Part shown: one piece after another, positions 26,002-48,591 of the stretch
Position numbering within the stretch: position 1 is the first letter of the stretch
How the letters are laid out: each line of letters starts with the position of its first letter
DNA from: Acidobacteriota bacterium
GTDB lineage: Bacteria; Acidobacteriota; Terriglobia; Acidiferrales; UBA7541
NCBI GenBank assembly: GCA_013289585.1
Contig: JABCZR010000006.1
Coordinates: forward strand, 62,001-126,000
DNA: 64,000 bases
Reading direction: 5' to 3'
Program-made: the position numbers and the translations under genes
The notes under the pieces: generated by a model
Seen by the model: the letters and a program-made list of their open reading frames with translations, nothing else
What the model was told of the DNA's origin: nothing
Databases searched by the model: none

Positions 26002-26331
26002 TTAGAATTCCTTCGTCGTTTTTCGAGGATAAAAACCGCCCGCGGGTTTTCGCGAATGAGTGTCGCGGTACTCGTCCAGCTCTACTTCGCTGATCCGGTA
26101 ATGCGATTGCGGCGGATGGTTCGAATAAGTGGCCAGCTCACGGTGGAGCTTGGCGGAGCAGATATCCGGAGCGTCTTGAAAACGCACGCGGCGCGAGTTG
26201 AATGCCTCGTTCACGATCGCCAGTGTGAATTCGCGAGTTTCATTCGAGGCTTGCCGGACGACAAAACTGTACTCACGCACAAGAGCCTTCGCCTCGAAGC
26301 CGACGTACTGGACGTTTACGAATTCCTTCAT
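26002..26331 (-). CDS. Small conserved-looking protein of unknown function, coupled to XRE regulator
   Basis: I do not recognise this 109-residue protein. Its start overlaps the stop of the XRE regulator (ATGA), so it is very likely real and made with it. It has a mixed alpha/beta pattern starting with FVNVQYVGFEAKALVREYSF, a central charged helix around FTLAIVNEAFNSRRVRFQDA and a basic C-terminus (the RKPAGGFYPRKTTKEF tail). No membrane segment, signal, Cys pair or catalytic motif is evident. The arrangement of regulator first and small protein second could be a regulator with its partner or a toxin-antitoxin-like pair, but nothing in the sequence proves this. Confidence 0.65.
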   Translation of the reverse strand: MKEFVNVQYVGFEAKALVREYSFVVRQASNETREFTLAIVNEAFNSRRVRFQDAPDICSAKLHRELATYSNHPPQSHYRISEVELDEYRDTHSRKPAGGFYPRKTTKEF

Positions 26332-32230: not shown

Positions 32231-32303
32231 ATCAAACTCCTGGGAATTCCGGTTCATTAGATGCCAGCAACAGTGGTCTGGCACGCTGACGTTCCGGCCA
32301 TGG

Positions 32304-33653
32304 CTAGGCGTGAGAAAGCACGGCCTGTTTGCGTTCAACAACGGAAGCCAGCGCAGCCTCGACCACGTTCAGCCCTTCGTCGAACTGTTCGTCGGTTATG
32401 ACCAGTGGAACAAGAATGCGCAGCACATTGTTGAACGTCCCGGCAGTGATGGTAATGAGGCCGTGTTCGTAGCAATAATTTGCAATCTGCTTGGTCTCGG
32501 AATCCGCAGGCTCGCGTGTCTGCGCGTTGCGGACCAATTCGATGGCGCACATGCCGCCCAGGCCGCGAACCTCGCCGACCAATGGCCATTTTTTTTGCCA
32601 GCCTCGGGCCCGCTGTTCGAAATGTTTTCCGATCGCCGTGGACCGTGCGAGCAAACCGTCTTTCTCGATCGTTTCGATCGCGGCTAGCGCCGCGGCGCAC
32701 GAAACCGGGTGTCCACAGTACGTGCCCCCGAGGGCGCCTACTCCTGGCGCGTCCATGATTTCGGCGCGGCCCGTCACCGCGGCGATGGGCATACCTCCGC
32801 CCAACGACTTCGCCATAGTGATCAGGTCCGGCTCAATCCCGAAATGTTCCGACGCGAACCATTTGCCGGTACGCGCGAATCCCGATTGCACTTCGTCCGC
32901 GATGAAAAGTATTCCGTGTTTGCGGCAGATATTCTGCAGCAATTGGAAGTAATCACGCGGCGGAATGATGAAGCCGCCTTCTCCGAGCACCGGCTCTGCG
33001 ATCACTGCCGCGACCGATTCGGCCGCCACCGTGCGCTTGAAAGCATCCTCGAGATAATGCGCAAATGTCTCCGCTGTGGCTCCGGCTTCCCCGCGGTATG
33101 GATAGGCAAAAGGAATCCGGTAGATATCGCTGGCAAACGGCTCGAAGCCCGCTTTGTATGGATGCGTTTTGCTGGTAAGCGACATCGCCAGTAATGTGCG
33201 GCCGTGAAAGGCATCCTCGAAGCAAATAACCGCAGGCCGCTTCGTATAAGCACGCGCGATTTTGATGGAGTTTTCAATCGCCTCCGCGCCGGAGTTCAGG
33301 AGGATTGTCTTCTTCGCAAAATTGCCGGGAGCGAGCGAGTTCAACTTCTCGGCCACCGCGACGTAGCTTTCGTAAGGAGTAACCGCAAAGCAGAGATGCA
33401 AGTGCTTCTCGAGTTGCTCGCGGATCACGGACATCACGCGCGGCGACCGGTGCCCGATATTAAGGCAGCCGATGCCACCCGCGAAATCGATGTAGCGGTT
33501 GCCATCAACATCTTCAATGACCGCGCCATTCGCGCTCGCGGCAAATACAGGCGTGGCATTCGAAGGGCCACGAGGTATTGCAGCTTCACGGCGCGCCATC
33601 AAAGCGCGCGAACGCGGGCCCGGAATTTCCGTTTTTATTTGTATTGTCGCCAT
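32304..33653 (-). CDS. gabT: 4-aminobutyrate (GABA) aminotransferase
   Basis: This class III PLP aminotransferase of 449 residues moves the amino group of GABA to 2-oxoglutarate, giving succinate semialdehyde for GabD. The start at 33653 follows AAGGAAA. Visible features: LLNSGAEAIENSIKIARAYT (PLP phosphate contact), EDAFHGRTLLAMSLT, Asp253 in IADEVQSGF and PLP Lys282 in MAKSLGGGMP. The LNIGHRSPRV and the GGTYCGHPVSCAAALAAIE blocks are typical of GabT. It could also accept 5-aminovalerate. It lies 73 bases upstream of gabD. Confidence 0.9.
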   Translation of the reverse strand: MATIQIKTEIPGPRSRALMARREAAIPRGPSNATPVFAASANGAVIEDVDGNRYIDFAGGIGCLNIGHRSPRVMSVIREQLEKHLHLCFAVTPYESYVAVAEKLNSLAPGNFAKKTILLNSGAEAIENSIKIARAYTKRPAVICFEDAFHGRTLLAMSLTSKTHPYKAGFEPFASDIYRIPFAYPYRGEAGATAETFAHYLEDAFKRTVAAESVAAVIAEPVLGEGGFIIPPRDYFQLLQNICRKHGILFIADEVQSGFARTGKWFASEHFGIEPDLITMAKSLGGGMPIAAVTGRAEIMDAPGVGALGGTYCGHPVSCAAALAAIETIEKDGLLARSTAIGKHFEQRARGWQKKWPLVGEVRGLGGMCAIELVRNAQTREPADSETKQIANYCYEHGLITITAGTFNNVLRILVPLVITDEQFDEGLNVVEAALASVVERKQAVLSHA

Positions 33654-33676
33654 TTTTGTTTTCCTTGCGTTGAAAT

Positions 33677-35158
33677 CTAGTACCACCCGATCGGGGTCTC
33701 GTCCAGATTGACGAAGACCTGCTTCGTTTCGAGATATTCTTCCATTCCCCAGGGACCCAGCTCGCGTCCGAACCCAGACTGCTTGTACCCGCCCCACGGC
33801 GCTTCCACGTAAGTCGGCTGCATATGGTTGACCCACACGATGCCCGCGCGCAGCGATTTCACCACGCGAAACGCCTTGTAGATATCGCGGGTCCAGACCG
33901 CCGCGGCGAGACCGTACGGAGTGTCGTTGGCGATTCGAATGGCTTCCGGCTCGCCTTCGAACGCAATTACGGATGCGACAGGACCGAAAATCTCTTCGCG
34001 GGAAATACGCGCGCTGTTATCCACGTCGTAGAAAATGGTCGGCTCGACATAGTAGCCCTTGCCGAACTCCTTCGGCCGCCCGCCGCCAATTGCGACTTTA
34101 GCTTCCTTCTTGCCCAGATCAAGATAAGAGCTGACGCGGTCGTATTGTTCCTTACTGACCAGCGGCCCCATCTTTGTCTCGCGCTCCAGGGGCGGCCCCA
34201 GCTTGATACGCTTGGCCTTTTCCGTCATGGCTTCGACGAATTTTGTATAGATTTTCTTTTCCACCAGGATGCGGCTCCCTGCGGAGCAAACTTCGCCTTG
34301 ATTGATGAATATTCCGAACAGCGCCCCATCCACGGCGGATTCCCAATCCGCACCCTCGAAGAAAATATTCGGCGACTTGCCGCCCAGCTCAAGCGTGACG
34401 CGCTTGAGCGTATCCGCAGCGCTCTTCACGATAACTTTTCCAACCGCCGCGCTTCCCGTAAACGCAATTTTGTCCACACCCGGATGTGCAACCAGCGCAG
34501 CACCCGCCGTTTCCCCAAAACCGTTAACAATATTGACTACGCCGGGGGGCAGGCCGAGCTCTTCAAACCAGTTGGCCACCTCCATCATGCTGAGCGGGGT
34601 CTGCTCGGCAGGCTTCAGGACGCACGTGCACCCCGCCGCAATCGCCGGCGCAAGCTTCCAGGCGGCCATAACCAGCGGGTAGTTCCACGGAATAATCTGC
34701 CCTGCGACTCCCACGGGTTCGCGAAGAGTGAAGCTCAGCGCATTCGCCGGTACCGGATTTACATGGCCCAGAACTTTGTTTGCCAGGCCGGCATAGTATT
34801 CGAAACAGGTTGCAGCGTCAGCGATGTCGTATTCCGCTTCGACGATGGGCTTACCGGAATTGCGGCATTCCAGCTCCGCTAGCTGAGCCGCGTTCGCCCG
34901 AATTTTCTCAGCGAGCTTGTAGAGAAGGCGGCCTCTCTCCGCGGCACTCGTCTGCGGCCACGGCCCGGAATCAAACGCCGCACGCGCTGCCTTCACGGCC
35001 TGGTCGACATCCGCTGCCGCGCCCGAGGCCACCTGCGCGATCACCTCTTCCGTCGATGGATCGTAGACGGGAAACATCGCACCCGAAGAACTCTTAACCC
35101 ACTGTCCGTTGATATAGTTCTGATAAGCTCGAACCACAGTTTTCGCGCTGCTCGACAT
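33677..35158 (-). CDS. Aldehyde dehydrogenase, aminoaldehyde/betaine-aldehyde type
   Basis: This is a 493-residue NAD+-dependent aldehyde dehydrogenase. The ATG at 35158 has GGGAGG five bases away; a GTG one codon earlier is possible. Catalytic residues are Glu257 (LELGGKSPN) and Cys291 (NQGEVCSAGSR). The C-terminal WVNHMQPTYVEAPWGGYKQS segment is close to betaine- and 4-aminobutyraldehyde dehydrogenases (BetB, PuuC and PatD relatives). Its place between an aminotransferase and GabT suggests oxidation of 4-aminobutanal to GABA. Betaine aldehyde cannot be ruled out, but no choline or glycine-betaine genes are near. Confidence 0.88.
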   Translation of the reverse strand: MSSSAKTVVRAYQNYINGQWVKSSSGAMFPVYDPSTEEVIAQVASGAAADVDQAVKAARAAFDSGPWPQTSAAERGRLLYKLAEKIRANAAQLAELECRNSGKPIVEAEYDIADAATCFEYYAGLANKVLGHVNPVPANALSFTLREPVGVAGQIIPWNYPLVMAAWKLAPAIAAGCTCVLKPAEQTPLSMMEVANWFEELGLPPGVVNIVNGFGETAGAALVAHPGVDKIAFTGSAAVGKVIVKSAADTLKRVTLELGGKSPNIFFEGADWESAVDGALFGIFINQGEVCSAGSRILVEKKIYTKFVEAMTEKAKRIKLGPPLERETKMGPLVSKEQYDRVSSYLDLGKKEAKVAIGGGRPKEFGKGYYVEPTIFYDVDNSARISREEIFGPVASVIAFEGEPEAIRIANDTPYGLAAAVWTRDIYKAFRVVKSLRAGIVWVNHMQPTYVEAPWGGYKQSGFGRELGPWGMEEYLETKQVFVNLDETPIGWY

Positions 35159-35179
35159 CACTGCCTCCCAAAATCCACG

Positions 35180-36634
35180 TCAAAGCGCCGAAGCCGCCGC
35201 CAGTTTCCGCGCGGCCTTGCGCCGGCCATACACAAAAAAGAAGAACGCCGCGAGGCCGATGAAAAACAGCGTGCCGCCGAACATCCAGATCTCATAGGAC
35301 AGGATTGACTTGATCTGCTGCGCCGGAAAAAAAACCAGAGTAATCCCCAAGAGTGTGGTCGTGAATCCGCTGAAACCGGCGGCGAGCAATGTCGTTTTGC
35401 CGTAACGGCCTCTTGCAAAACTCTCGCTGAAGGCAATCTTTAATAGTGCGCCAAACATATAAAGAAATGGGATTAGTTGCAGCACCACGGCGAGAGACAG
35501 CAGTTTCTGAAATGTCTCCTGCACTCCAGCGCCCGTAAAGGAAAAATTGATGACCACCAGTATCAAGGAAACTGCCGCGTGGACGATCAGCGCGGCATAC
35601 GGCGTGGCATACTTCGGATGGACCTTGCCGAGCCACGATGGCATGTAGGAATCGAGGCCGGCGACAAAGGGAATCCGCGCCGATCCACCCAGCCACGCGG
35701 AACCAATCCCGGCGATCGAAACGCTTAACAGGAATGCAAAGGGTGCGACAATCCAATTTGCTCCAACCCGGCTCGCCATGTGCCCTACGGCTTGCACAAT
35801 CCCTTGCAGCACGCTGATATCATTCTTGCTCACAGCAATCAGCAGCGTCAGCGTGGCCCCGATATACAGCAAGCCGGAGAGAACGCCGCCCCACGCCACA
35901 GCTCCCGGTAGCGTTTTTTGTGGATTCTCGATTTCATCGCCCATGATGGAAGCGAGTTCCAGCCCGACGAGGCCAAAACAGATCACCCCAAAGGAATTCA
36001 GCACAAAACGAGGGTTCGCCGGAATCTGAAAATCAGCGGCCGTCACCGTGGTGCCAAACCGCAGCCAGACCGTGATGCCGAGACCAATCAGAACCGCCGC
36101 GGCAACTCCCGTTCCGATCGCCCCGAGGTTGTTGAGCCACTTGCCGACCCCCAGGCCCACCACGTTCAACACCACCAGGAGCAGCAGCAAAATCAGGGAA
36201 GCCGCCAGTGCAAAGGATTTGTTGTCCGCCAGCTTTTCGTGCCCGGGCCCCAGAACGAAGACGGACACGCCTACGAAATAAAGCATCACCGTCGGGACAT
36301 ACATCATGTTGTTCGTCCAGTAGCACCAGCCGGAGAGAAAGCCGTGGAAGTCGCCGAATACTTCCTTGGCCCAGAGGTACACGCCACCCTCGCCCGGAAA
36401 GCGGTGCGCGAGCTCAATGACCGCAATGCCCTGCGGCCAGAAGAACAGCAAAAGGGAGATGATCCACAACCAGACCGTGACGCCGCCATTGGCAGCGATC
36501 GAAGGAACTACGTTGAGGTTGAAAACCGCTACAACAAAAAGCAGAACGAGGTCCCAGCGTCCCAAAACCCGCCGCAAGTGTGTTGCTACTTCCACCTCGG
36601 GCGCCGTGGGTGTCGTGATGACCTCGTTCGGCAA
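35180..36634 (-). CDS. APC-superfamily amino acid/polyamine permease
   Basis: This is a membrane permease of 484 residues with about 12 helices. It begins at TTG with CAGGAG upstream; no ATG occurs near the start of the domain. The first helix has LVLLFVVAVFNLNVVPSIAA, followed by the FPGEGGVYLWAKEVFGDFHG loop typical of the APC family. Helix 6 contains FGVICFGLVGLELASIMGDE with the substrate-gating Glu. The substrate is likely GABA, glutamate, putrescine or a related amine, judged by neighbours. It is 18 bases upstream of the aldehyde dehydrogenase. Confidence 0.88.
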   Translation of the reverse strand: MPNEVITTPTAPEVEVATHLRRVLGRWDLVLLFVVAVFNLNVVPSIAANGGVTVWLWIISLLLFFWPQGIAVIELAHRFPGEGGVYLWAKEVFGDFHGFLSGWCYWTNNMMYVPTVMLYFVGVSVFVLGPGHEKLADNKSFALAASLILLLLLVVLNVVGLGVGKWLNNLGAIGTGVAAAVLIGLGITVWLRFGTTVTAADFQIPANPRFVLNSFGVICFGLVGLELASIMGDEIENPQKTLPGAVAWGGVLSGLLYIGATLTLLIAVSKNDISVLQGIVQAVGHMASRVGANWIVAPFAFLLSVSIAGIGSAWLGGSARIPFVAGLDSYMPSWLGKVHPKYATPYAALIVHAAVSLILVVINFSFTGAGVQETFQKLLSLAVVLQLIPFLYMFGALLKIAFSESFARGRYGKTTLLAAGFSGFTTTLLGITLVFFPAQQIKSILSYEIWMFGGTLFFIGLAAFFFFVYGRRKAARKLAAASAL

Positions 36635-36668: not shown

Positions 36669-38051
36669 TCAGTGTCCGGCCGCACCCACAAAAGCGAGGC
36701 CGCGCTCTTGCTGCGCCTTCGCAAGAGCGGGCGCGACCTCTTCGAATACCAAAAGATGCTTGTCAATATCCGCCTCGGTGTGCTGCACCGAGATCGTCCA
36801 TTGCTCATCCCACCAGTAGGGCTGTGCGAGCACGCCGCGGTTCACCATGGCAAACCAGTAGTGCCGCCACAGATCCACGTCGATCTTGGTCCAGTCGCGA
36901 TAGTTGCGGATCTCCTGCGGATAAAGCATCAACGCGCCGTTGACGCCGGCGCTAGCCACATAGGCCGTCAACCCGGACTTCGCCACGATGCCCCGGTAGC
37001 CTTCGGTGAGCTTCTTGCTGAGTTTGCCGACGTGCGCATAGTTTTCGCGCGTTAGCACTTCACGAAACGTCGCCAGCCCCGCGGCCATCGCCACGCGATT
37101 CGTGTTGTACGTACCGCCGTGAAAAACTTTGTGCTGCGAGATCAAGTCCATCACCGCCCGGCTCGATCCAAACGCACCCAACGGCAAGCCGCCGCCGATG
37201 GACTTTGCCAGGCAGATCATGTCCGGCTTCACGCCAAAAAAATCGCTCGCACCGCCCCACGCAAGCTTCGCTCCGGTCTTGACTTCATCAAAAATCAGCA
37301 GCGCGCCATTCTTTGTGCAGATATCCCGCAGCCCTTGCAAGAATCCAGCCTGCGGCATGCACAAACCAACGTTCATCATTATCGGCTCAAGAATGATCGC
37401 GGCAATCTGCCCGGGATACTGCTTGAAACGATTCTCGACGCTCTTCAGGTTGTTGAAACTCGCAACGACAACGTTCTCCAGCGCGCTCTTCGGTATGCCA
37501 CCCCCGCCGGGAACAGAATTAGGAGCGTCTGGATCGCCGTACTCTTCGGCCTTCGGCTTGACGCTCACCAGCGCCGTGTCATGCAACCCGTGGTAGGACC
37601 CCTCGAATTTCAGAATCTTGTCGCGTCCCGTAGCCGCGCGCGCGATGCGGCAAGCGTGCATCGTAACTTCCGTCCCGCTCGATCCAAACCGCACCATATC
37701 CACCGGATACCGCGCACAGATCTCCTCCGCAAGCTCCCATTCCTGCTCATGCGGCATTCCGAAGGTCGTTCCTTCGTGCAATTTCTGTTCGACGGCCTTC
37801 ACCACCGCAGGGTGGCAATGCCCGGCCATCAACGCGCCAAAGCACAGGTTGTGATCCACGTATTCGTTTCCGTCGACATCGTGAATCCGGCCCGCATTTC
37901 CGTCCTTTACGAAAATCGGATAAGGCTCATAGTGCCGGTAATTGCTGGCTACGCCCAGCGGGATTCTTTGCAGTGCTCGCTTGTGCGCCGCGGCGGACTT
38001 TGGCGTCCGCTTTTCGTACGTCGCGATTTCCTTCTGTAGTCCGTCGTGCAT
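36669..38051 (-). CDS. Class III aminotransferase (HemL-like)
   Basis: This 460-residue PLP enzyme falls in the glutamate-1-semialdehyde aminomutase-like branch: YRHYEPYPIFVKDGNAGRIH, RFGSSGTEVTMHACRIARA, EGSYHGLHDTALVSVKP, Asp255 (LIFDEVKTG) and PLP Lys283 (LAKSIGGGLP). As first gene of a GABA-degrading operon it more likely works as an omega-aminotransferase than in heme synthesis. Putrescine, spermidine or another amine is a likely donor, but this is inferred from context. TTGGAG precedes the ATG. A true HemL for heme would normally be near other hem genes, and there are none here. Confidence 0.85.
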   Translation of the reverse strand: MHDGLQKEIATYEKRTPKSAAAHKRALQRIPLGVASNYRHYEPYPIFVKDGNAGRIHDVDGNEYVDHNLCFGALMAGHCHPAVVKAVEQKLHEGTTFGMPHEQEWELAEEICARYPVDMVRFGSSGTEVTMHACRIARAATGRDKILKFEGSYHGLHDTALVSVKPKAEEYGDPDAPNSVPGGGGIPKSALENVVVASFNNLKSVENRFKQYPGQIAAIILEPIMMNVGLCMPQAGFLQGLRDICTKNGALLIFDEVKTGAKLAWGGASDFFGVKPDMICLAKSIGGGLPLGAFGSSRAVMDLISQHKVFHGGTYNTNRVAMAAGLATFREVLTRENYAHVGKLSKKLTEGYRGIVAKSGLTAYVASAGVNGALMLYPQEIRNYRDWTKIDVDLWRHYWFAMVNRGVLAQPYWWDEQWTISVQHTEADIDKHLLVFEEVAPALAKAQQERGLAFVGAAGH

Positions 38052-38319: not shown

Positions 38320-41300
38320 TCAGAAAAGCAGTTTCAGCCCAAACTGCAGCAACCGCGGATCGCGCGTCTTCTGCGGCTGTCCAAAGGTCGTCCCCTGGTT
38401 TCCAGAGTTCCCATCGATGCTGTAGAACTGCGTATGGTTGAACAAGTTGAAAATCTCCGTCCGGAATTCCAGCCTCACCCTTTCTCCAATTGGGGTGTCC
38501 TTGAAAATGCCCATATCCCAGTTGTTGATCGGCGAATTGCAGCAAACGGTCCGCGGCGCATTCCCGAATGTTCCAGCCGCCACGTTATTATCGAATTGAT
38601 TCGGATCGAATCCAAAACCTGTCGTGCGCGGATTTGTCTGCTGTACCGGCCCAAGCAGGTTCGGTTTCCCGGGGCATTCGAATCCCTGGATGCTCCCCTC
38701 CAGCTCGCTATCGTTGCAATTGTTGATCAAAACCGGGAACCCGGTCTGAAAGGTGTAAATCCCGGACACTTGCCAGCCATTCAAGGCCTTGCCGGCAAAT
38801 CCCTCTTTCTTCGGCACCGGCAAGTCCCAGACGTAGTTGAAAACGAAGCGATGCCGCGCATCGTAAAGCGATGGACCATACGTCGCATTGAAATTGGTCG
38901 GGTTTAAAATCTCCTCGAAGCTCGAGGCGTTATCCAGTGATTTGCTGTACGTGTACGACGCCTGGAACTGCAGCCCATGGGAGAAGCGCTTCTCGAGAAG
39001 TGTTTGCAGTGAATTGTAGTTGGAATGCGCTGCCGTGTCCTCGTTGAAGATACTCCCGAAAACCGGTGTACCATCAGCAGGACAGCCGCTCGTTAGCGGA
39101 TTTTGACCCAGCGGATTGCAATTTGGCGATGAGTAGGGACGCAAGCCAACCAAATTAATCGGCGTACCTCCCGGTGCGCCCGTGATGGTGCAGCCAGTCG
39201 GAGTCGGGCCCGAGATGGGGCAAGGAATGTTGGCCCCTCCGGGTGTTGGCCCGGCAATGTAGGGCAGATGAAGAACCGATTGGAATGGCAGCGTGAATTG
39301 ATATTGGCTGTCCTCGCCGAATGCGCCACAGCTTTGCCCCGCGATCGCATTGATATCGTTGCAAGTTTGCGCGTTCGCGGCATTCTGATCGTAAATGGCC
39401 AGGAGCCGGTGTCCCTGCGAACCGACATAGCCAACTTGAAGCAGGATATTGGCTGGCAGTTCGCGCTTGATCGTCAAGTTGTACTGCGCGGAATACTGCG
39501 TCCGCATATTCGTTGGAAATTGTCCGAACAGCAGAATCGATCGATACAGCGACCAGTCCACCGGCTGATTTCGCGGTGGTGTCAGAAAACCATTCGAAAC
39601 GTTTGGTTTCGTCGTTCCCTCTTGGGATACAAAGGGTGCATCCAGGATCGGATTCGAGATGGAGTTACTGATGCCGAATGGCGGTTCGGCAACGAACTGT
39701 TCGAGCACCAGTTGTTCAACCGGGTTGTAGAAAAGGCCCCACCCCATGCTGATGCTCGTCTTGCCCGGGCCACCGGTCAACATTGCGAGGGTGCCATCTT
39801 TCCAGTCGGGACTCCAACTCAGTCCGATTCGGGGTGCGAAGGACTTGTAGTAGGTGTTGATCAGACCGCCAGGGACACCCTTATCGCCCGGCACCACCAG
39901 TCCTGTCGGCGTGGTGCCCGTGTTGTTGCAGTCGGGTGTCGGCGCGTTCGGTACCTGAAACTGAGGAAGCTGTGCAAAGGTCGCGACGCTTATCGCGGAA
40001 AGTTGACAAGGGTAAACCAGCGAGTTCTGCCCAGGATTAAACCTCTGCACTTTTTGACCGATGTCTGTCAGCGGCGTATTCATCTCCCAGCGGAGACCAT
40101 AATTCAGCGTAACGTTTGATTTGATCTTCCAGCTGTCCTGGGCGAACAGGTAGACCGAAGTGCTCCGGACCAACTCCTTGTTTCCGGAACCCTGCGAATA
40201 GGAGACCGGCAAGCCCAGCAGGTAGTTGGCATACGGGTCGCCTGACCCCGTGTCGTTGGGGCCGCCCGTGCCTAAAATGTATTCGCCATTCACGTTGAAA
40301 TAGACCGTCTGATCAAATTTCTGATAGCGGGTATCCGCCCCAAACTTGAGACTGTGGTGGCCGATGATCTTGCTGTAATTGTCACTGAACTGGAATGTAT
40401 TGCCCGTCTGCGGCAATTGTCCTTCGAAGTTGTTTCCAAAGAGACCGGTTGTGCCATTCAGGGTGAAAAACGGCACCCCCTCGAACTGCGATCCCAGTCC
40501 GGGGTGAATGCCGCATCCGAATTGGCCTGGACACTGCGGCACATTGGGAGTCGTCGTCGAACCGAGCGGGTTCAAGTTCGCATCGACCAGCGCCGTATCT
40601 GTGGTCCCGGTGAAGCAGAACGCCGAGGCCGCTCCGCTTCCGCAAGAAGCGGTCACCAGATTCGTTGTGGTCGGAGTATAAAATTGGGGTTCCGCCTCAC
40701 GGAACAGTGTGAACCGGAATTCATTCACAGCGGTAGAGCCGATCGTCCACGTATGGCTCGCATTTATTTGCTGCACGTGCGAAATGATCCGGCCGCCGAA
40801 ATTGCCTAGCGAAGCTCCGGCAAGCTGAAAAATCGCAAAAGGATCAAGCGTGTTGTCGTTATCGTAGTAGTAGTAGACCGAGAGCTTCTGGTCCTTGTTC
40901 AGGATCTGGTCGAAATGTATCTGGAACTGGTCGCCTCGATCCGTGGACTTGGCAACGTTCTGAACCTGCGAACTCGCGCCTCCCGAGCCCGGCAGAAACT
41001 TCAGTAGGCTCACCGCAACCGGGTCAAAGCACTGTACGGGAACCACGCCGCCCGTGAAAATGGAGTCGTACAGTTGTGGATTTCCTGCAGCTACTTGAGC
41101 CAAGCTGGCCTGTTGGGCCGGCAAAAGGCTTGACCCGCACCCCGTTCGATTCTGAAAAATGCTAGCTACTGTCGGATCCGTCAGAGTTCCCGTAAACGGA
41201 GCTCCAAAGTTTCCGGCCAGATCGGCTCCGGTTGGCACAGGCACGGGCTGCGACACGATTCCTCGCACGATACGCCGTCCTTCGTATGAACCAAAGATGA

Positions 41301-42228
41301 ATGTCTTGTCTTTCTTGATGGGCCCGCCAATCGTTCCGCCAAACTGGTTTTGATTGAAGGGGGGTTTTGGCGTCGGCTGGAATGAGAATCCGTGCGCATT
41401 CAGCACTGTGTTGCGGAAGAACTCATACGCGCTCCCATGCCAATCGTTCGTGCCGGACTTGGTCACCACGTTGACGACCGCGCCCGAATTGCGCCCGTAC
41501 TCGGCGTCAAAGGAGTTCGTAATAACGCGAAATTCCTCGACGCTGTCCGGGGAAGGCTGCACCGCGGGCAGATTCGCGAACAGGTCATTGCCGTCGCCGC
41601 CATTCACGGAATAATTGTTCGCGCGGCCGCGGCCGCCATTCACTGTTACGACGCCCGCCTTGTCCGACCCATAAAAGAGGTTATTTCCAATCTGCGACTG
41701 CACGCCCGGCTGCAATTGCAGCAACTGATATACATCGCGTTCGTTCAGCGGCAGTTGCGTCGAGGAGCGCTCGTTGACCACCGCGCCAAGCTGTGTCGAT
41801 GTCGTATCGATGACTGGTGGAGCGCCAGTGACTTCAACCGTGTCCACCGCCGCTCCAACTTGAAGCGTAATGTCCACACTCAGAACTTCATTCAGATTGA
41901 GAACAATCCCCTTACGCACATACTTCTTGAATCCCGTCGACTGCGCATCGAGTTCGTAAGTCCCCACTGGAACTTCCAGAAAGATATATTCCCCATTGGT
42001 GCCCGCTTCCGAATCACGCGTCGCATGGGTCGCCTCATTGATGAGCGTCACCTTGGCGCTTGCGATCGCCCCGCCACTGGGATCCATCACCGTGCCGCGG
42101 ATGCGCCCGCCGGTGCTCTGCGCGCCCGCAAAAGGCGCGGCCAGAAGCATCGCTAGCCCAAAAATCAGAATGAACCAGGTGCCCTTGCAGCATGACGAAC
42201 GTCGCCGCATTCCTGCATCAACCTTCAT
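38320..42228 (-). CDS. Oar-like TonB-dependent receptor with carboxypeptidase-regulatory domain
   Basis: This outer-membrane protein of 1302 residues follows a signal peptide (WFILIFGLAMLLAAPFAGAQ). Residues ~38-125 are a carboxypeptidase-regulatory/CNA-B-like beta sandwich (GRIRGTVMDPSGGAIASAKV). The plug domain follows, with LPLNERDVYQLLQLQPGVQS and VNGGRGRANNYSVNGGDGND, then DSVEEFRVITNSFDAEYGRN. A long 22-strand barrel ends with FGLKLLF, whose terminal Phe is the BAM signal. AGGGGTGAG precedes the ATG. The type is abundant in Acidobacteriota, where such receptors are thought to import sugars, siderophores or peptides. Its ligand is unknown; being flanked by polyamine genes makes an amine-containing substrate conceivable. 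Confidence 0.92.
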   Translation of the reverse strand: MKVDAGMRRRSSCCKGTWFILIFGLAMLLAAPFAGAQSTGGRIRGTVMDPSGGAIASAKVTLINEATHATRDSEAGTNGEYIFLEVPVGTYELDAQSTGFKKYVRKGIVLNLNEVLSVDITLQVGAAVDTVEVTGAPPVIDTTSTQLGAVVNERSSTQLPLNERDVYQLLQLQPGVQSQIGNNLFYGSDKAGVVTVNGGRGRANNYSVNGGDGNDLFANLPAVQPSPDSVEEFRVITNSFDAEYGRNSGAVVNVVTKSGTNDWHGSAYEFFRNTVLNAHGFSFQPTPKPPFNQNQFGGTIGGPIKKDKTFIFGSYEGRRIVRGIVSQPVPVPTGADLAGNFGAPFTGTLTDPTVASIFQNRTGCGSSLLPAQQASLAQVAAGNPQLYDSIFTGGVVPVQCFDPVAVSLLKFLPGSGGASSQVQNVAKSTDRGDQFQIHFDQILNKDQKLSVYYYYDNDNTLDPFAIFQLAGASLGNFGGRIISHVQQINASHTWTIGSTAVNEFRFTLFREAEPQFYTPTTTNLVTASCGSGAASAFCFTGTTDTALVDANLNPLGSTTTPNVPQCPGQFGCGIHPGLGSQFEGVPFFTLNGTTGLFGNNFEGQLPQTGNTFQFSDNYSKIIGHHSLKFGADTRYQKFDQTVYFNVNGEYILGTGGPNDTGSGDPYANYLLGLPVSYSQGSGNKELVRSTSVYLFAQDSWKIKSNVTLNYGLRWEMNTPLTDIGQKVQRFNPGQNSLVYPCQLSAISVATFAQLPQFQVPNAPTPDCNNTGTTPTGLVVPGDKGVPGGLINTYYKSFAPRIGLSWSPDWKDGTLAMLTGGPGKTSISMGWGLFYNPVEQLVLEQFVAEPPFGISNSISNPILDAPFVSQEGTTKPNVSNGFLTPPRNQPVDWSLYRSILLFGQFPTNMRTQYSAQYNLTIKRELPANILLQVGYVGSQGHRLLAIYDQNAANAQTCNDINAIAGQSCGAFGEDSQYQFTLPFQSVLHLPYIAGPTPGGANIPCPISGPTPTGCTITGAPGGTPINLVGLRPYSSPNCNPLGQNPLTSGCPADGTPVFGSIFNEDTAAHSNYNSLQTLLEKRFSHGLQFQASYTYSKSLDNASSFEEILNPTNFNATYGPSLYDARHRFVFNYVWDLPVPKKEGFAGKALNGWQVSGIYTFQTGFPVLINNCNDSELEGSIQGFECPGKPNLLGPVQQTNPRTTGFGFDPNQFDNNVAAGTFGNAPRTVCCNSPINNWDMGIFKDTPIGERVRLEFRTEIFNLFNHTQFYSIDGNSGNQGTTFGQPQKTRDPRLLQFGLKLLF

Positions 42229-42245: not shown

Positions 42246-42304
42246 CGAAGATTTTTGATGATCGATTCTTCGAGGTTGCTGTGCCCCGTAAACCTTACTA
42301 TAAT
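42246..42304 (+). promoter_or_regulatory. Promoter of the MerR-XRE-cupin regulator and possible operator
   Basis: A -35 TTGCTG (42276-42281) and a perfect -10 TATAAT (42299-42304) are 17 bases apart. Transcription would begin near 42311, about 22 bases before the GTG start. Directly upstream is an inverted repeat with arms CGAAGA/TCTTCG (42246-42251, 42267-42272), a candidate operator. The opposite strand drives the TonB receptor gene. Confidence 0.55.
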
Positions 42305-42332
42305 CCAGCAAACTTAGAGAAAGCCGGGACCG

Positions 42333-43163
42333 GTGTCAAGCAGAAAGAATTTATCCGGAGAATCCGCGAAGCGCATATTGCGCGGCCCCTTGCGCATCAG
42401 CCAAGTGGCCCGCCGCGTCGGCATTTCTTCCTCCGCCCTCCGTGCCTGGGAAGCCCTGGGCCTCGTCGCGCCACAGCGAACTCAGAGCCGCTATCGTCTT
42501 TATTCCGAAGCCGACGTGCGCCTTCTCCAGCGCGCGATTTTTCTTCGCCGTTCCCGCGGTCTCAATCCCGCCGCCATCGTCCACGTTCTTAAGCGCCAGG
42601 GCCTGGTGTCCGCTCCCGCAGAGTCTGCGGCGCACCCCGGCCAGCGTTTTCGCCGTCTCCGCACGCGCCGCGGACTCTCGCTCGCCCAGGTCGCACGAGC
42701 CACCGGCGTTTCTGTCGGATTTCTCAGCGGCCTGGAGCGTGGCCAGATGCGTTCTTCGATCGCCACCCTTCGCCGCATCGCTCGTTTCTACCGCACGAAT
42801 ATCCTTTCGCTCTTCGAAACCGCAGGTGAACAGCCGCGTCTCGTCCGCCCGAACCAGCGAAAAATCCTTGAAACCACTCCCGGCGTACGCATGGAACTGC
42901 TCGCCTGGGGCCACACCGCTATGGAGCCGCATCTCTTCCGCGTCAAACCCGGCGGAGGGAGCGGCGAACCTTACTCCCACGAAGGCGAAGAATTCCTGCA
43001 CATTCTCCGAGGAGACTTCGAGATCTGGCTGGACGGAAAAGAACATTATCGCCTGAAACCGGGGGACAGTCTTTATTTCGAAAGCTCGACCCCGCATCGC
43101 TGGAAGAATCCGGGACGGGTGGAAACCTGGCTGCTGTGGATCAACACGCCGCCAACATTCTGA
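42333..43163 (+). CDS. MerR-XRE-cupin fusion transcriptional regulator
   Basis: This 276-residue protein carries three modules. Residues ~20-90 are a MerR-type winged helix (RISQVARRVGISSSALRAWE, then YRLYSEADVRLLQRAIFLRR). Residues ~104-160 are an XRE helix-turn-helix (RRGLSLAQVARATGVSVGFL, then SGLERGQMRSS). Residues ~200-270 are a cupin (PYSHEGEEFLHILRGDFEIW, SSTPHRW with His216 and His255). XRE-cupin proteins include PuuR, the putrescine-responsive repressor of E. coli. The MerR part added in front is unusual. Start is a GTG just behind a strong promoter with only a weak ribosome site, so the first ~15 residues are uncertain. It leads the plus-strand polyamine import operon. Confidence 0.85.
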   Translation: MSSRKNLSGESAKRILRGPLRISQVARRVGISSSALRAWEALGLVAPQRTQSRYRLYSEADVRLLQRAIFLRRSRGLNPAAIVHVLKRQGLVSAPAESAAHPGQRFRRLRTRRGLSLAQVARATGVSVGFLSGLERGQMRSSIATLRRIARFYRTNILSLFETAGEQPRLVRPNQRKILETTPGVRMELLAWGHTAMEPHLFRVKPGGGSGEPYSHEGEEFLHILRGDFEIWLDGKEHYRLKPGDSLYFESSTPHRWKNPGRVETWLLWINTPPTF

Positions 43164-43215: not shown

Positions 43216-44277
43216 ATGAAAATTCGCAGATCGTTTCTCGGGCTTCTGGCTCTGACACTGGCTTGCGGCGCTTGCCAGAAAAAAGCAGATTCCCTCAGCC
43301 TGCTCGTCTGGGAAGGCTACGCCGACGCCTCCTTCGTTCGCCCTTTCGAGGAAGCCCATCACTGCAAAATCGTCGCCTCTTACATGGGTTCCAGCGACGA
43401 ACTCGTCGCCAAACTCCGCGGCGGCAGCGCCTCCAATTACGACGTCATCTCGCCTTCCAGCGACGTTGCCGCTTCCATCACGCGCGCTGGCCTCGCTGCC
43501 CCCCTCGATTTGTCCAAGGTGCCGTCCTACAACCAGCTCTCGCAAAAGCTCCGCGATATGCCCCTCGTCAAAGCCAACGGCCACGTCTACGGTGTCCCCT
43601 TCATGTGGGGACCGAATCCGCTTCTCTATGACACCACGGCCTTCGCTCAGCCGCCGGACTCCTGGACTATTTTCTGGGACCCGAAATACAAACAGAAAAT
43701 TTCCGTTTGGGATGATCTCTCGACGCTCTACATGGCGGCCCAGGTTCTCGGGTTCGACAAGCCGGATCCGTCGCAGCTCTACAATCTGAACGACGAGCAG
43801 CTCGCCGCCGTCAAGAAAAAACTGATCGAGCTGAAGCCCAACATTCGAAAGATCTGGTCCACTGGTGGAGAGCTGACCAACCTCTTCCAAAATCATGAAA
43901 TCGTTCTCGCCATGGGTTGGCCGCTCAATACCAACGACCTAATGAAATTGAATTTTCCTATCGGTGAAACGATCCCCAAGGAAAACACCACAGGATGGAT
44001 TGATCATTTGATGATCACTTCCGCAAGCAGCCACAAGGACCTCGCCCAGGCATTCCTCGAATATATGATTGAAGCGAAAACGCAGAAGCTCGTGGCGGAC
44101 CGCACGCATTACACGCCTGCAAATCCCCTGGCAGCCCAATTTCTCAGCTCGGAGGAAGTAAAAGTCCTGCATCTCGACAACCCCGACGCTTACATGCAAC
44201 GCATCTATTTCTGGCAGGACGTTCCGCGGCGCGCGAAGTACAACGAAATCTGGAATGAAGTCAAAGCTGCTCAGTGA
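43216..44277 (+). CDS. potD: Polyamine ABC transporter substrate-binding lipoprotein (PotD-like)
   Basis: This 353-residue protein has GGGAGGG before the ATG and a lipoprotein signal ending at the Cys of LTLACGAC. The mature part has the PotD/PotF fold: [20 protein letters not shown] at the start, then [19 protein letters not shown] and [16 protein letters not shown]. The C-terminal [20 protein letters not shown] is typical. It should bind putrescine, spermidine or a related polyamine in the periplasm. The stop overlaps the ATPase gene (GTGA), coupling the two. Confidence 0.9.
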
Positions 44278-45353
44278 GTTTCGCCATAGCCAACCCGCAA
44301 TCACTCGACACTGCAACCCCCGCTGTGCTCCTTGAGGTGCGGGACGTAGCCAAGCGTTTTGGCGCTCGCGAAGTGCTCAAGAGCATCTCCCTGAATATCG
44401 CTCCCGGTGAATTTCTTACCCTGCTCGGCGAAAGTGGCTCCGGAAAGACGACGCTTCTTCGCTTGATCGCCGGATTCGAACAGCCGACCGCTGGTGAAAT
44501 CTGGATGAGCGGCGAACGGCTCGACGCCCTCCCGCCCTACAAACGCCGCGTGAACACCGTTTTCCAGAACTACGCGCTCTTCCCGCATCTGAGCGTGCGA
44601 GACAATGTCGCATACGGTCTGCGCGTCAAGAGCACTCCCGCCAGCGAAATCGGCGGGCGTGTGGACCACGCTCTCCGCATGGTCAAGATGGAAGAGTTCG
44701 CCGACTCCCGCCCGTCCAAATTGAGCGGCGGCCAGCAACAACGCGTTGCCCTCGCCCGCGCACTCGTCAATCGCCCCCAGCTTCTTCTGCTCGACGAGCC
44801 GCTCTCCGCCCTCGACGCCAATCTCCGCAAACAGATGCAGGGCGAATTGAAAACCCTCCAGCGCGAGCTTGGCATCACTTTTCTCTTTGTCACACACGAC
44901 CAGGACGAAGCCATGGCGCTTTCTGACCGCATCGCGTTGTTGCGCGGCGGCGCGCTCGAGCAGGTTGCCTCGGGCCGCGAAATCTACGCCCATCCAACGA
45001 CCGCCTACACCGCCCAGTTCATCGGCCAAACCAATTTGCTGCGAGCTGAAGTTCGCGACGGCGTCGCTGTCTGCGGCGCACTGCAATGGCCCGCCGAAGG
45101 CGAGAGTGGCGCTGCCGTTTTCTCCCTGCGCCCGGAGGCCATTCAACTCGCTTCCGCTGGCATTTCGATCCCCGGCACCGTGCATTTCCGCGCCGCCATG
45201 CAGCAGCAGTTTTACAGCGGTGCCAGTGAGTTGCTCGAAGTCACCTGCGCCGGCGGCCAACTCCTGCGCGTGCGCGTTCCCGCACAGGGCCCGCTTTTCG
45301 GTGAGCACGACTTTGTCTTCGCAGCCGCGGACGCCATCCGCGTCCAGGAGTAA
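44274..45353 (+). CDS. potA: Polyamine ABC transporter ATP-binding protein (PotA-like)
   Basis: This 359-residue ATPase starts with GTG overlapping the potD stop. Walker A is GESGSGKTT, the signature [15 protein letters not shown], Walker [13 protein letters not shown] and the switch His in [10 protein letters not shown]. The C-terminal TOBE region ([12 protein letters not shown]) is found in the PotA/CysA group. It powers uptake through the two permeases that follow. Confidence 0.93.
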
Positions 45354-45371
45354 TGCTCCTTATCTTTGCCT

Positions 45372-46217
45372 ATGTACTCGCGCGCCTATAAAACGATCGT
45401 CTCTCTCCCACCCCTTCTCTGGGTTGGCGTTTTTCTGCTGCTTCCCTACGCTTTAATGTTTGCCCATAGCTTTTGGGCGGTGCGCGATGGAACCGTGGTG
45501 CACCAATGGAACCTGAACAATTATCACACCCTGTTTTCGAAACCCGTCTACCTCGAAGTCCTTCTGCGCACCATGCGTATCGCCGCTTCCGTCACTTTGT
45601 GCTCTCTGCTCCTCGGCTACCCGCTCGCCTATTACCTGTCATTTCATTCCGGCGCCCGCAAGGAATTGCTCTACCAGCTCGTGATCGTGCCCTTGTGGGT
45701 GAGCTACTTAGTCCGCGGCTACGCCTGGAAAACCATTCTAGGCAGCGAAGGCGTCCTCAATGGCTTCCTCCAGTATCTGCATCTCACCCACGAGCCTGTG
45801 TCGTTTCTGCTCTACAGCCCCTTCGCAGTCGTCCTTATGCTCACTCACATCTACACGCCATTCGTTTTTTTGCCCATCTACGCCGCGCTCGAGCACATTC
45901 CCCGCCCGCTCGTCGAAGCCTCGCAGGATCTCGGCGCCGGCTCCGCTCAGACTTTTCTTCGCGTTATTTTTCCCCTCTCTATTCCCGGGCTTGTTGCCGG
46001 AGCCACCTTCGCTTTCGTTCTCTCGCTTGGCGATTTCCTCGCACCTCTTCTCGTCGGCGGCGCTTCCAGCACCATGATCTCGAACGTGGTGCAGAGCCTC
46101 TTCGGTGCGGCACTCGATTGGCCTCTTGGGGCCGCAATCTCCGTCTGTATCGTGATCGTCATCATTTCTCTTCTTTTTCTCACCGAGCGCCTGGAAAAGC
46201 GGTGGTCCTTCAAATGA
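45372..46217 (+). CDS. potB: Polyamine ABC transporter permease (PotB-like)
   Basis: This 281-residue membrane protein has six helices. The ATG at 45372 is two codons inside a TTG start of the longest frame; the site upstream is weak. The cytoplasmic EAA loop that contacts the ATPase is visible as EHIPRPLVEASQDLGAGSAQ followed by FLRVIFPLSIPGL. The family is PotB/PotH. It is coupled to the next permease by ATGA. Confidence 0.9.
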   Translation: MYSRAYKTIVSLPPLLWVGVFLLLPYALMFAHSFWAVRDGTVVHQWNLNNYHTLFSKPVYLEVLLRTMRIAASVTLCSLLLGYPLAYYLSFHSGARKELLYQLVIVPLWVSYLVRGYAWKTILGSEGVLNGFLQYLHLTHEPVSFLLYSPFAVVLMLTHIYTPFVFLPIYAALEHIPRPLVEASQDLGAGSAQTFLRVIFPLSIPGLVAGATFAFVLSLGDFLAPLLVGGASSTMISNVVQSLFGAALDWPLGAAISVCIVIVIISLLFLTERLEKRWSFK

Positions 46218-47035
46218 GCCCCAGCACTCCAACTCGCCGGTCTCGACTGCTCACCATCTACGCCGCTCTTGTCTTCGCCTTCATCTATCTCCCCATCGTT
46301 ATCCTCATCCTTTACTCCTTCAATCGCGACGGCGTCGGCGGTTTCCCGCCCCGTCATTTCACGTTCGAATGGTATCGCCAGCTCTTTGCCGACGGCCCCA
46401 TCTGGGATTCCGTATTGAACAGCCTCATCGTTGCCGCCGGCAGCGTAGTGCTCTCGCTGACTTTGGGCCTCCTCGCGGCCCTCGCGCTCGACCGCGCAAA
46501 CTTTCCAGGCAAAGCTCTCTTCCGCCGCCTTGTGCTCCTGCCCTTGATTCTCCCCGGCATCATCACCGGCCTTTCTCTTCTGATGTTCGCCGTGGTCTCT
46601 GGAGTCCAGCTCAGCCTCTTCACCGTCTTCCTCGGCCACGGTACCGCGCTCATTTCCGTCGCCACGACCGAGCTTTTCGCCGGCCTCCAAAAAATGGATC
46701 GCGCCCAGGAGGAAGCCTCGCTCGATCTCGGCGCAACACCCTGGCAAACCTTCTGGCGCGTCACCCTCCCGAATCTCAAACTCTCCTTGATCGCAGCTGG
46801 CCTGCTGATCTTCACCCTCTCCATGGATGAGATCGCCGTCACCTTTTTCTTGATCGGCCGCGACAATACTCTTCCACTCGAAATCTGGGGCCGCCTCCGC
46901 CGCGGTATCACCCCGGAAATCAACGCTGTCTCCACACTGATCTTCGCCGTCTCCGTCGGCCTCATCGTCATTTGGTACCGCGTGCGCACGCGCGGTCTCG
47001 GCGCCGACGCACAGGAACTTCTCGAACGACCCTAG
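46214..47035 (+). CDS. potC: Polyamine ABC transporter permease (PotC-like)
   Basis: This second permease has 273 residues and overlaps the potB stop (ATGA). A much longer open frame back to 45473 runs inside potB and is not real. The EAA loop is KMDRAQEEASLDLGATPWQT followed by FWRVTLPNLKLSLIAAG. The first helix LLTIYAALVFAFIYLPIVIL and the FNRDGVGG segment are typical of PotC. It is followed eight bases later by the amine oxidase gene. Confidence 0.9.
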   Translation: MSPSTPTRRSRLLTIYAALVFAFIYLPIVILILYSFNRDGVGGFPPRHFTFEWYRQLFADGPIWDSVLNSLIVAAGSVVLSLTLGLLAALALDRANFPGKALFRRLVLLPLILPGIITGLSLLMFAVVSGVQLSLFTVFLGHGTALISVATTELFAGLQKMDRAQEEASLDLGATPWQTFWRVTLPNLKLSLIAAGLLIFTLSMDEIAVTFFLIGRDNTLPLEIWGRLRRGITPEINAVSTLIFAVSVGLIVIWYRVRTRGLGADAQELLERP

Positions 47036-47043
47036 GAGGATGT

Positions 47044-48591
47044 ATGCCGTCGTCGCGCCGTGATTTCATCAAGTTCGTTGTTGTCGGCTCAGTCGCCGCC
47101 GGTTGTCCGGTCGACGCCACTCTGTTGCCAGCATCCGATTCGAGCTCGGCCACCTCCCCTCTTGTTCAGGGCGAGCACTTTGAGATTTGTCACCAGGTCC
47201 GCGACGGCCATCAATTCGAACACCCGGACGCCACCCGCAAAGCCGATATCGTCATCGTAGGCGGTGGCGTCGCCGGCCTCTCCGCCACCTACTTCCTTGG
47301 CGGCAAAGACTGGCTGCTCCTTGAAAAAGAAGACCACTTCGGCGGAAACGCTTACCAGGAAGAATACGGTGGCCAGCCCTTCGCCACCGGCTCCGCGTAC
47401 GCCTACCGCAACGACGAAGGCGACCAGCTCGCAAAGGAAATCGGCCTCAACCTTCTTCCCATCAACAATCCCGACCCAACGATCGTGAACAAAACCTTCG
47501 TTCCCGACACCTGGAAAGCCGGTCTCGACCAATTGCCGTATCCCAAGCAGGTCCGCGAAAGTTTCAAGAAATTCCGCGACGACATTATGAAGATCAAACT
47601 TCGCGAAAAGATGAACGAGCTCGACGCCCAGCCGTTCACAAATTTTACCGGCTCCTACGCGCCCGAACTTACCCAGTGGTGGGATGCCTACGGCCCTTCG
47701 AATTGGGGAGCCACCACCGAAGACACCTCAGCTTTCCTGGGCGTCTCCGCCATGCAGGATTTGATCAACGGCGGTGATGCCACGCGCGTGATCCTCCCCG
47801 GCGGCCTCGGTTGCATCACTCACAAGCTCGTCGAAGTCCTTCAGCCGAAATATAAGGAGCGCATGCTCGGCGACGTAACCGTCGTCGCCGTCATCCAGGA
47901 CAAAGACAGCGTCCGCGTAACTTATATCCATGAAGGCAAGCTCACCAGCGTCGCCGCTAAGATAGTCTTGATGTGCACACCCAAGCACATCACCTCTCGC
48001 ATCGTGCTGCCACTGCCCTATGAACAAAAAGCCGCCATGCGCCGCTTCCGCTACGCGCCCTATCCCGTCGTCAACGTGATCTTTGACAAGCCCGTCTATA
48101 ATCGCGGCTACGACAACTGGTGTCCCGGCAATTCCTTTACAGATTTCATCGTCGCCGACTGGACCGTCCGCAATAATCCCGGCTACAAGCAGAGATTCAA
48201 CATTCTCTCCTTCTATACCCCGCTTCGTGAAAATCAGCGTGCCACTTTGTTGAGCGAAGACGATTGCAAATCGCTGGCCGCTCGCGTCCTCGCCGATTTC
48301 CAGAAGCTCATGCCCGGGTTCAACGCCAATCCCGCCGAAGTGCGCATCTACCGCCGCGGCCATCCCATGTTCATGGGCACTCCCGGCCACTACACAAAAG
48401 ACCGCATCGCGGCTTCCTATCCCATGGACCGCATCTTTTTTGGCAACGCCGACTCCGGCGGCCCCGAATCGCTCACTTCCGAATCCGTCCGCCTGTCCAG
48501 AGTCGGCGCCGAGTGGGCCGGACTCATCCTCGCCGGCAAGCCCGGCTCGAGGGAATTGGCGGAGAAAGCGCTGGCTGCAAATCCAGAGTAA
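47044..48591 (+). CDS. Tat-exported FAD-dependent amine oxidase
   Basis: This 515-residue flavoprotein starts with an ideal AGGAGG four bases upstream of the ATG. The N-terminus is a twin-arginine signal (SRRDFIKFVVVGSVAAG), so the folded enzyme should be exported. The dinucleotide-binding motif IVGGGVAGLSATYFLGG is at ~71-87, followed by LLLEKEDHFGGNAY. The C-terminal FAD contact region includes IFFGNADSGGPESL. Amine oxidases of this type deaminate primary, secondary or polyamines, making aldehyde, ammonia and peroxide. Position in the Pot operon suggests a polyamine substrate, though protoporphyrinogen- or phytoene-like oxidases share the fold. Confidence 0.85.
   Translation: MPSSRRDFIKFVVVGSVAAGCPVDATLLPASDSSSATSPLVQGEHFEICHQVRDGHQFEHPDATRKADIVIVGGGVAGLSATYFLGGKDWLLLEKEDHFGGNAYQEEYGGQPFATGSAYAYRNDEGDQLAKEIGLNLLPINNPDPTIVNKTFVPDTWKAGLDQLPYPKQVRESFKKFRDDIMKIKLREKMNELDAQPFTNFTGSYAPELTQWWDAYGPSNWGATTEDTSAFLGVSAMQDLINGGDATRVILPGGLGCITHKLVEVLQPKYKERMLGDVTVVAVIQDKDSVRVTYIHEGKLTSVAAKIVLMCTPKHITSRIVLPLPYEQKAAMRRFRYAPYPVVNVIFDKPVYNRGYDNWCPGNSFTDFIVADWTVRNNPGYKQRFNILSFYTPLRENQRATLLSEDDCKSLAARVLADFQKLMPGFNANPAEVRIYRRGHPMFMGTPGHYTKDRIAASYPMDRIFFGNADSGGPESLTSESVRLSRVGAEWAGLILAGKPGSRELAEKALAANPE

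Follow-up and report, generated by a model that had tools for sequence, protein, structure and literature searches.

A MerR-XRE-cupin fusion protein as the probable local off-switch of a divergent polyamine/GABA gene cluster in Acidobacteriota

The analysed DNA, a stretch of 64,000 nucleotides from an Acidobacteriota contig (JABCZR010000006.1) referred to below as the window, contains a divergent polyamine/GABA/succinate cluster with a regulator gene (42333–43163, plus strand). Downstream of the regulator, and in the same orientation, lie genes encoding a PotD/PotF/YdcS-like binding protein (43216–44277), a PotA-like ATPase (44274–45353; 379.8 bits, cut-off 482), a PotB-like permease (45366–46217; 207 bits, cut-off 348), a PotC-like permease (46214–47035; 173.1 bits, cut-off 326), a flavin amine oxidase-like protein (47041–48591) and an amidohydrolase. 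Polyamine transporter models were the best or near-best NCBIfam matches of the pot-type proteins. Since all of these matches, including those of the binding protein, were below the curated cut-offs, a polyamine role is likely rather than established. The amine oxidase-like protein scored above the Pfam cut-off for Amino_oxidase and begins, as judged by eye, with a Tat-like N-terminus, which suggests that it perhaps oxidizes amines in the periplasm. Its best NCBIfam match was PigB (95.3 bits vs. a cut-off of 850).

The minus strand carries, read from the distal end towards the regulator, gabD, gabT and the genes for an aldehyde dehydrogenase, a GadC-like permease, a class-III aminotransferase and an outer-membrane receptor. 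The receptor (38320–42228), divergent from the regulator, is of the Oar/TonB type with CarboxypepD_reg and OMP_b-brl_4 domains. The aminotransferase (36669–38051) is HemL-like (383.7 bits, HemL cut-off 527.3), the GadC-like amino-acid permease (35180–36634) scored below curated cut-offs and the betaine-/aminobutyraldehyde-like aldehyde dehydrogenase (33677–35161) below equivalog cut-offs. Two open reading frames hold the GABA transaminase GabT (32304–33836, the true start lying inside the frame; 582.9 bits, cut-off 506.65) and the NADP-dependent succinate-semialdehyde dehydrogenase GabD (30737–32341; 875.3 bits, cut-off 828). The genome contained 10 matches to the GabT profile and only the copy from this locus exceeded the cut-off. 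Neither a synthetase nor a hydrolase for gamma-glutamyl-putrescine was recognised in a scan of 12 neighbours (best 25 matches per protein), and the PuuC model was matched only below its cut-off. A separate 358-aa open reading frame at 26328–27404 of the window possesses an N-terminal HTH_3 domain (E = 1.7e-07), with no further Pfam match at E ≤ 1e-5.

The regulator is 276 aa long, counted from a GTG start that was kept as an NTG codon and is uncertain, and consists of a MerR-type winged helix, an XRE/Cro-type HTH and a cupin barrel, in this order. The MerR_1 match (residues 21–88, plus-strand positions 42393–42596) reached 61.2 bits (E = 1.1e-16; Pfam cut-off 21.6), with R37, W39, E40, G43, L44, P47, R49, R55 and Y57 conserved. 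The HTH_3 match (residues 107–157; 54.3 bits, E = 1.3e-14, cut-off 23) lies within an HTH of about residues 103–160 (42639–42812, plus strand), in which R110 and E135 are conserved at 0.99. The Cupin_2 match (residues 201–270; 42933–43142, plus strand) had 68.9 bits (E = 3e-19, cut-off 27.2). The original prediction of these three domains in one chain was confirmed, the MerR part included, as was the position between the pot operon and the receptor. By the succession of HTH_3 and Cupin_2 the protein belongs to the XRE-cupin class and by its winged helix above the Pfam cut-off to the MerR family. The cupin residues H216, E220 and H255, which are conserved (E220 is D in the paralogues), could form a 2-His-1-Glu metal site with Y214 replacing the first cupin His. 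The AF2 model (mean pLDDT 69, pTM 0.39) supports the three domains, and the geometry between the domains in it is unusable.

Across 28 loci all three codon positions of codons 1–7 were conserved and codons 8–19 had no coding signature. The first base of the start codon was G in 25, A in two and C in two of the 29 genus loci. A conserved, frame-independent TGTCAAG (42334–42340, unstranded) is located here and may be a second DNA contact. It was also kept in four loci from other genera (L096–L099), in two of which (L096 and L098) the reading frame that follows runs, by eye, into a stop before the MerR domain. The stretch 42333–42353 may contain the true start or an overlapping DNA or RNA element. 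The assignment of the MerR domain is independent of the choice of start because this domain begins at residue 21.

Among characterised systems, the best NCBIfam match was PuuR of E. coli (NF007408), described as the repressor of putrescine-to-GABA genes (PMC7901475, PMC9397018). The XRE-cupin part of the regulator (residues 100–276) aligned to the end of the PuuR profile, but the score was 64.6 bits vs. the equivalog cut-off of 211, and the MerR domain is an addition. The proposed likeness to PuuR thus stood for the XRE-cupin part and did not extend to the equivalog score or, among the 12 neighbours scanned, to the gamma-glutamyl enzymes. HTH_3 and Cupin_2 are also common to ErfA, PauR, PsdR and PA0535 of Pseudomonas, which are described as adjoining their target genes, binding palindromic operators and controlling metabolite catabolism (PMC7901475); no MerR head is described for them in the main text of that paper, whereas the regulator has one. 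The canonical winged helix is shared with HspR/FtsR/CarH-like MerR heads, but the HspR score (49.1 bits) was below the equivalog cut-off of 105 bits. The V. cholerae XRE-cupin regulator 1Y9Q was both the best PDB sequence match, confined to the XRE-cupin part (residues 104–257), and the best fold match by E-value, followed by chains of the HppE epoxidase. The whole-model TM-scores of these fold matches were low (0.24–0.31), the domain orientation in the model being unreliable.

Apart from the regulator itself, its own genome gave no full-length match; the five others, at E ≤ 0.001, were partial and weak. Matches at E ≤ 1e-20 were detected in 33 of 61 genomes (its own included), comprising 31 of the 36 genomes of the window's genus, one of the same family (G036) and one of the same class (G058). 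In the class, 45 of 298 genomes matched at E ≤ 1e-40, counting genus members and paralogues. Acidobacteriota and Pseudomonadota were sampled as whole phyla, with strict limits and the best six candidates per genome scored, which makes the counts lower bounds: at least 17 of 396 acidobacterial genomes matched at E ≤ 1e-20, at least 15 of them with the MerR part (own genome counted), and at least 10 of 398 pseudomonadotal genomes at E ≤ 1e-28, at least seven with the MerR part. Shorter relatives of the XRE-cupin type alone accounted for two of the 17 and three of the 10 matches, respectively. Orthologues did not start after the MerR part, and all six homologues scanned with Pfam, from both phyla, likewise had MerR, XRE and cupin domains in this order. 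In the family of G759 (taken as Rhizobiaceae) 26 of 161 genomes matched, one match covering the query only from residue 70. PLSDB yielded 121 plasmid records at E ≤ 1e-30, all with at least 80% query coverage and 82 from Sinorhizobium; the records listed, where annotated, read 'MerR family transcriptional regulator' (rhizobial plasmids).

The MerR-XRE-cupin fusion is recurrent in two phyla. A tree was built from 76 rows, 70 of them fused and six, on long branches, unfused; it required two changes for the fused rows. One origin of the fusion was found in 4% of bootstrap trees, and the starred branches were compatible with a single origin. No published description of this architecture was found in the open-licence PMC literature, where the papers on rhizobial GABA regulation also yielded no MerR-XRE-cupin protein. 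The original prediction likewise knew of no such chain among described regulators; the fusion itself, being found in two phyla, is not unique.

The surroundings of the regulator were compared in relatives. The divergent receptor was present at 22 of 23 genus loci, the remaining contig beginning inside the regulator, and PotD was located downstream of the regulator at 18 of 23. Among the genus loci without PotD, two (L038 and L052) end within 1.9 kb, whereas three (L040, L041 and L054) are pot-free over 6–8 kb and retain the left arm. The whole arrangement of pot operon, regulator and receptor was conserved within the genus and also in some further genera of the class. In several genus members an additional gene separates PotD from the regulator (L044 8746–10581, L048 8845–10572, L040 8845–10569); the one in L048 encodes an Amidohydro_3 protein (E = 6.9e-104).

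When the genus and the paralogue clade were set aside, 23 of 28 loci had a GabT-like gene in the fetched flank (11/13 in Acidobacteriota, 6/7 in Pseudomonadota genomes and 6/8 on alphaproteobacterial plasmids), and in the fetched flank of the other five none was seen; the paralogues had none (0/4). Five of seven neighbouring GabT-like genes that were checked scored above the TIGR00700 cut-off and two just below. Among the 15 loci outside Acidobacteriota, 12 had GabT and one, L113, had the potDABC set, in the order gabT-regulator-potDABC. The transporter encoded near the regulator varies between a pot ABC system, a sodium-solute symporter and an amino-acid permease. Because GabT recurs while the transporters vary, GABA use is the commonest shared theme and pot-type import a local addition. 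The polyamine context originally assigned to the locus was correct and too narrow, the cluster including gab genes.

The regulator was not detected in five of the 36 genus genomes. Three of these (G018, G025 and G028) retain the aminotransferase, GadC and gab genes: G018 also has the pot genes, with neither receptor nor regulator found there, G028 is also without pot, and in G025 the contig ends at the aminotransferase and gab side. The other two (G005 and G026) have no aminotransferase either.

Upstream of the regulator a new element is proposed here, the dyad CTTRC-N9-GYAAR, which is predicted from the alignments to be the operator. The window copy has the core CTTAC-TATAATCCA-GCAAA (42294–42312, unstranded; extended dyad 42291–42315) and covers the -10 box in the promoter of the regulator gene itself: a plus-strand TATAAT (42299–42304) was recognised by eye inside the operator spacer. 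A possible -35 box, TTGCTG (42276–42281, plus strand), is weak (3/6 to consensus, by eye) and, if accepted, gives a promoter spacer of 17 bp (42282–42298), with 16–18 bp in relatives by eye. A conserved TTAGAGAAAG (42314–42323, plus strand) forms the right flank of the operator and may serve as a Shine-Dalgarno sequence. The near-invariant upstream block with TATAAT inside the dyad aligned in 28 of 29 genus loci, and in the 29th (L032) it sits farther upstream; such conservation is expected anyway, given that the element overlaps the -10 box, the start codon and the possible Shine-Dalgarno.

The dyad was perfect in family f11 (AACCTTGC-N9-GCAAGGTT). When all 5-base arms with spacers of 0–20 were enumerated group by group, CTTGC-N9 was joint first in f11 (8/8). 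In rhizobia TTGCA-N7, which is the same dyad, was first (9/26) and CTTGC-N9 second (5/26), and in other Proteobacteria TTGCA-N7 was joint first (4/9). The exact CTTGC-N9-GCAAG, from which the window copy differs at two positions, was absent from the genus (0/28), other genera of the family (0/9) and distant Acidobacteriota (0/9). With a degenerate score, chosen after the sites had been seen and controlled by spacers of 3–17, N9 was found in 27/28 genus loci, 8/8 of f11, 15/26 rhizobia and 6/9 other Proteobacteria, vs. at most 3, 7, 7 and 3 for any other spacer. The degenerate N9 dyad was weak or missing in the remaining genera of the family (3/9), in distant Acidobacteriota (1/9), in the paralogues (0/4) and in 11 of the 26 rhizobia. 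The loci are related and some come from one genome, so that the motif counts are not independent. In 55 loci a relaxed pattern had 31 occurrences within 18 kb upstream, compared with 12 in the 926 kb from elsewhere. In Proteobacteria the like arms have the same spacing around a different spacer sequence and lie mostly 90–200 bases before the MerR domain, and at least nine of 35 proteobacterial loci have a second dyad 31–33 bp from the first. In Acidobacteria TGTCAAG is about 34 bp from the dyad centre and is kept regardless of the reading frame.

The zero-mismatch extended dyad had one match in the whole genome, the window operator itself. With three mismatches allowed, 101 and 84 matches were obtained vs. 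210 and 200 for the reversed-pattern control, and since they are fewer than in the control, such looser matches are meaningless. Core sites with one mismatch were not enriched in the window (16 vs. 17.6 expected). The divergent side itself, whose receptor gene starts about 65 bp from the operator core, showed no separate copy of the operator. Four one-mismatch extended sites were found elsewhere in the genome (C7:46300, C11:69434, C7:178593 and C23:88470), and the genes around the first three were inspected. The C7:46300 site precedes a gene for a CoA-acylating methylmalonate-semialdehyde dehydrogenase (571.1 bits, cut-off 448.5); as a second regulon member it was rejected, as only nine of 30 genus loci scored ≥8.5 and the strictly conserved part is promoter-like. 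A perfect CTTGC-N9-GCAAG at 36707–36725 was also rejected: it falls within the reading frame of the aminotransferase, 73 nt upstream of where the permease gene starts, and only L058 among the 22 other genus loci had a like site at the apparently equivalent place.

The three domains, the gabT partnership and the dyad of fixed spacing in two phyla, which in Acidobacteria lies over a -10-like TATAAT, make it reasonably likely that the regulator is a local autorepressor of the polyamine/GABA catabolic locus, binding the dyad over its own -10 box and released by GABA or a close relative. A presumed dimer would occupy CTTRC-N9-GYAAR. Because the dyad covers the -10 box (-35 and -10 being 17 bp apart), binding should block the polymerase, which would cause autorepression and shut off the putative regulator-pot-amine oxidase operon; this occlusion reading applies to Acidobacteria, in which the overlap was seen. 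The divergent side, from the receptor through the aminotransferase, GadC and aldehyde dehydrogenase genes to gabT and gabD, would probably be co-repressed. The cupin would bind GABA or a close relative (putrescine, aminobutyraldehyde or succinic semialdehyde), upon which the regulator would leave the DNA; since most orthologues have gabT(D) in common, GABA or a relative is the preferred candidate, and putrescine is a possible ligand. The Pseudomonas XRE-cupin regulators are likewise described as local, promoter-occluding repressors thought to leave DNA upon sensing a pathway metabolite (PMC7901475), and autoregulation via palindromes is reported to be frequent among XRE regulators (PMC12565409). 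In our best reading the regulator is PuuR-like in its logic, yet not PuuR.

Other explanations were weighed against this one. A putrescine-sensing repressor of the PuuR type, with the pot genes as the main target and the gab genes carried along, would agree with the best NCBIfam match, with PotD after the regulator at most genus loci and with the gabT-regulator-potDABC order in another phylum. The low PuuR score, the predominance of GabT over potDABC outside Acidobacteriota (12/15 vs. 1/15), the three of 23 genus loci that are pot-free with the left arm kept and the pot proteins under the curated polyamine cut-offs make it unlikely, and the putrescine-specific role first proposed was not upheld. 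It is highly improbable that the MerR head activates transcription by twisting a promoter with an over-long spacer, even though its canonical residues are conserved and the ACCTTGC-type arms resemble MerR operators. Classical MerR promoters have a spacer of 19–20 bp, whereas that in the window is 17 bp if the weak -35 box is correct, and the dyad lies over the -10 box, not between -35 and -10. MerR proteins also have a long dimerisation helix after the DNA-binding domain; in the AF2 model it is absent, helix 79–88 being followed by a low-confidence linker (94–100) and the XRE domain from residue 102, and the regulator has XRE and cupin domains in place of the MerR coiled coil or effector domain. 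A reading in which the conserved element is just core promoter and translation start, or acts as RNA, while the regulator has its site at another place, was judged very unlikely: the element holds the -10 box, a possible Shine-Dalgarno and the start, and its conservation extends into codons 1–7, but similar arms at the same spacing surround a different spacer sequence in Proteobacteria.

It is possible, though doubtful, that one head alone binds DNA and the other acts as a dimerisation or protein-contact module. Known XRE-cupin regulators are described as binding by the XRE part alone (PMC7901475), and Acidobacteria have a single strong dyad. However, canonical residues are kept in the recognition segments of both heads across two phyla, and TGTCAAG and the second proteobacterial dyad suggest more DNA contacts. 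Between f11 and rhizobia, which share the arms and differ in the centre, identity was 43% in the MerR and 32% in the XRE domain (recognition helices 53% and 44%); between the genus and f11, which differ in the arms and share centre and flank, the recognition helices were 57% (MerR) and 86% (XRE) identical. These patterns fit, circumstantially, an assignment of the CTTGC arms to the MerR heads and of the centre or flank to the XRE heads, which is suggestive only. Extending the autorepressor reading, a dimer might place four HTH units on a composite operator. The MerR heads would then contact the CTTGC-N9-GCAAG arms and the XRE heads either the central bases or a further element at a distance of about three helical turns, and both phyla would have retained a GABA switch of high specificity that acts at one site; this is put forward tentatively and with less than even confidence.

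The regulator of this soil bacterium is probably an uncharacterised local off-switch for the use of polyamines and GABA as food. If so, it would be a common regulator of the GABA/polyamine genes of Acidobacteria and of gabTD-linked rhizobia, often on large plasmids, that is unstudied in the open-licence PMC literature and whose predicted operator is testable in culturable strains. The protein would further offer a naturally occurring combination of two unlike DNA-binding folds in a single metabolite-sensing chain, with which the gain of specificity by composite operators could be studied.

Several related loci differed from the common type. A paralogous MerR-XRE-cupin clade occurs in some genus members (G019, G017, G024 and G015; L108–L111). 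A receptor-like gene adjoins these copies, their fetched flanks contained no GabT, the N9 dyad was not seen, and the copy in G015 was divided between two matches. L036, titled Betaproteobacteria (BOG isolate), carries the acidobacterial locus at about 87% identity, and the match in its genome (G452) has contig coordinates identical to those in G006 of the same genus, the record being probably a mislabelled MAG. In G543 (L119 9347–11236) the regulator type is joined to an enzyme in a four-domain fusion of MerR_1, HTH_3, Cupin_2 and Proline racemase (PF05544, E = 2.7e-45).
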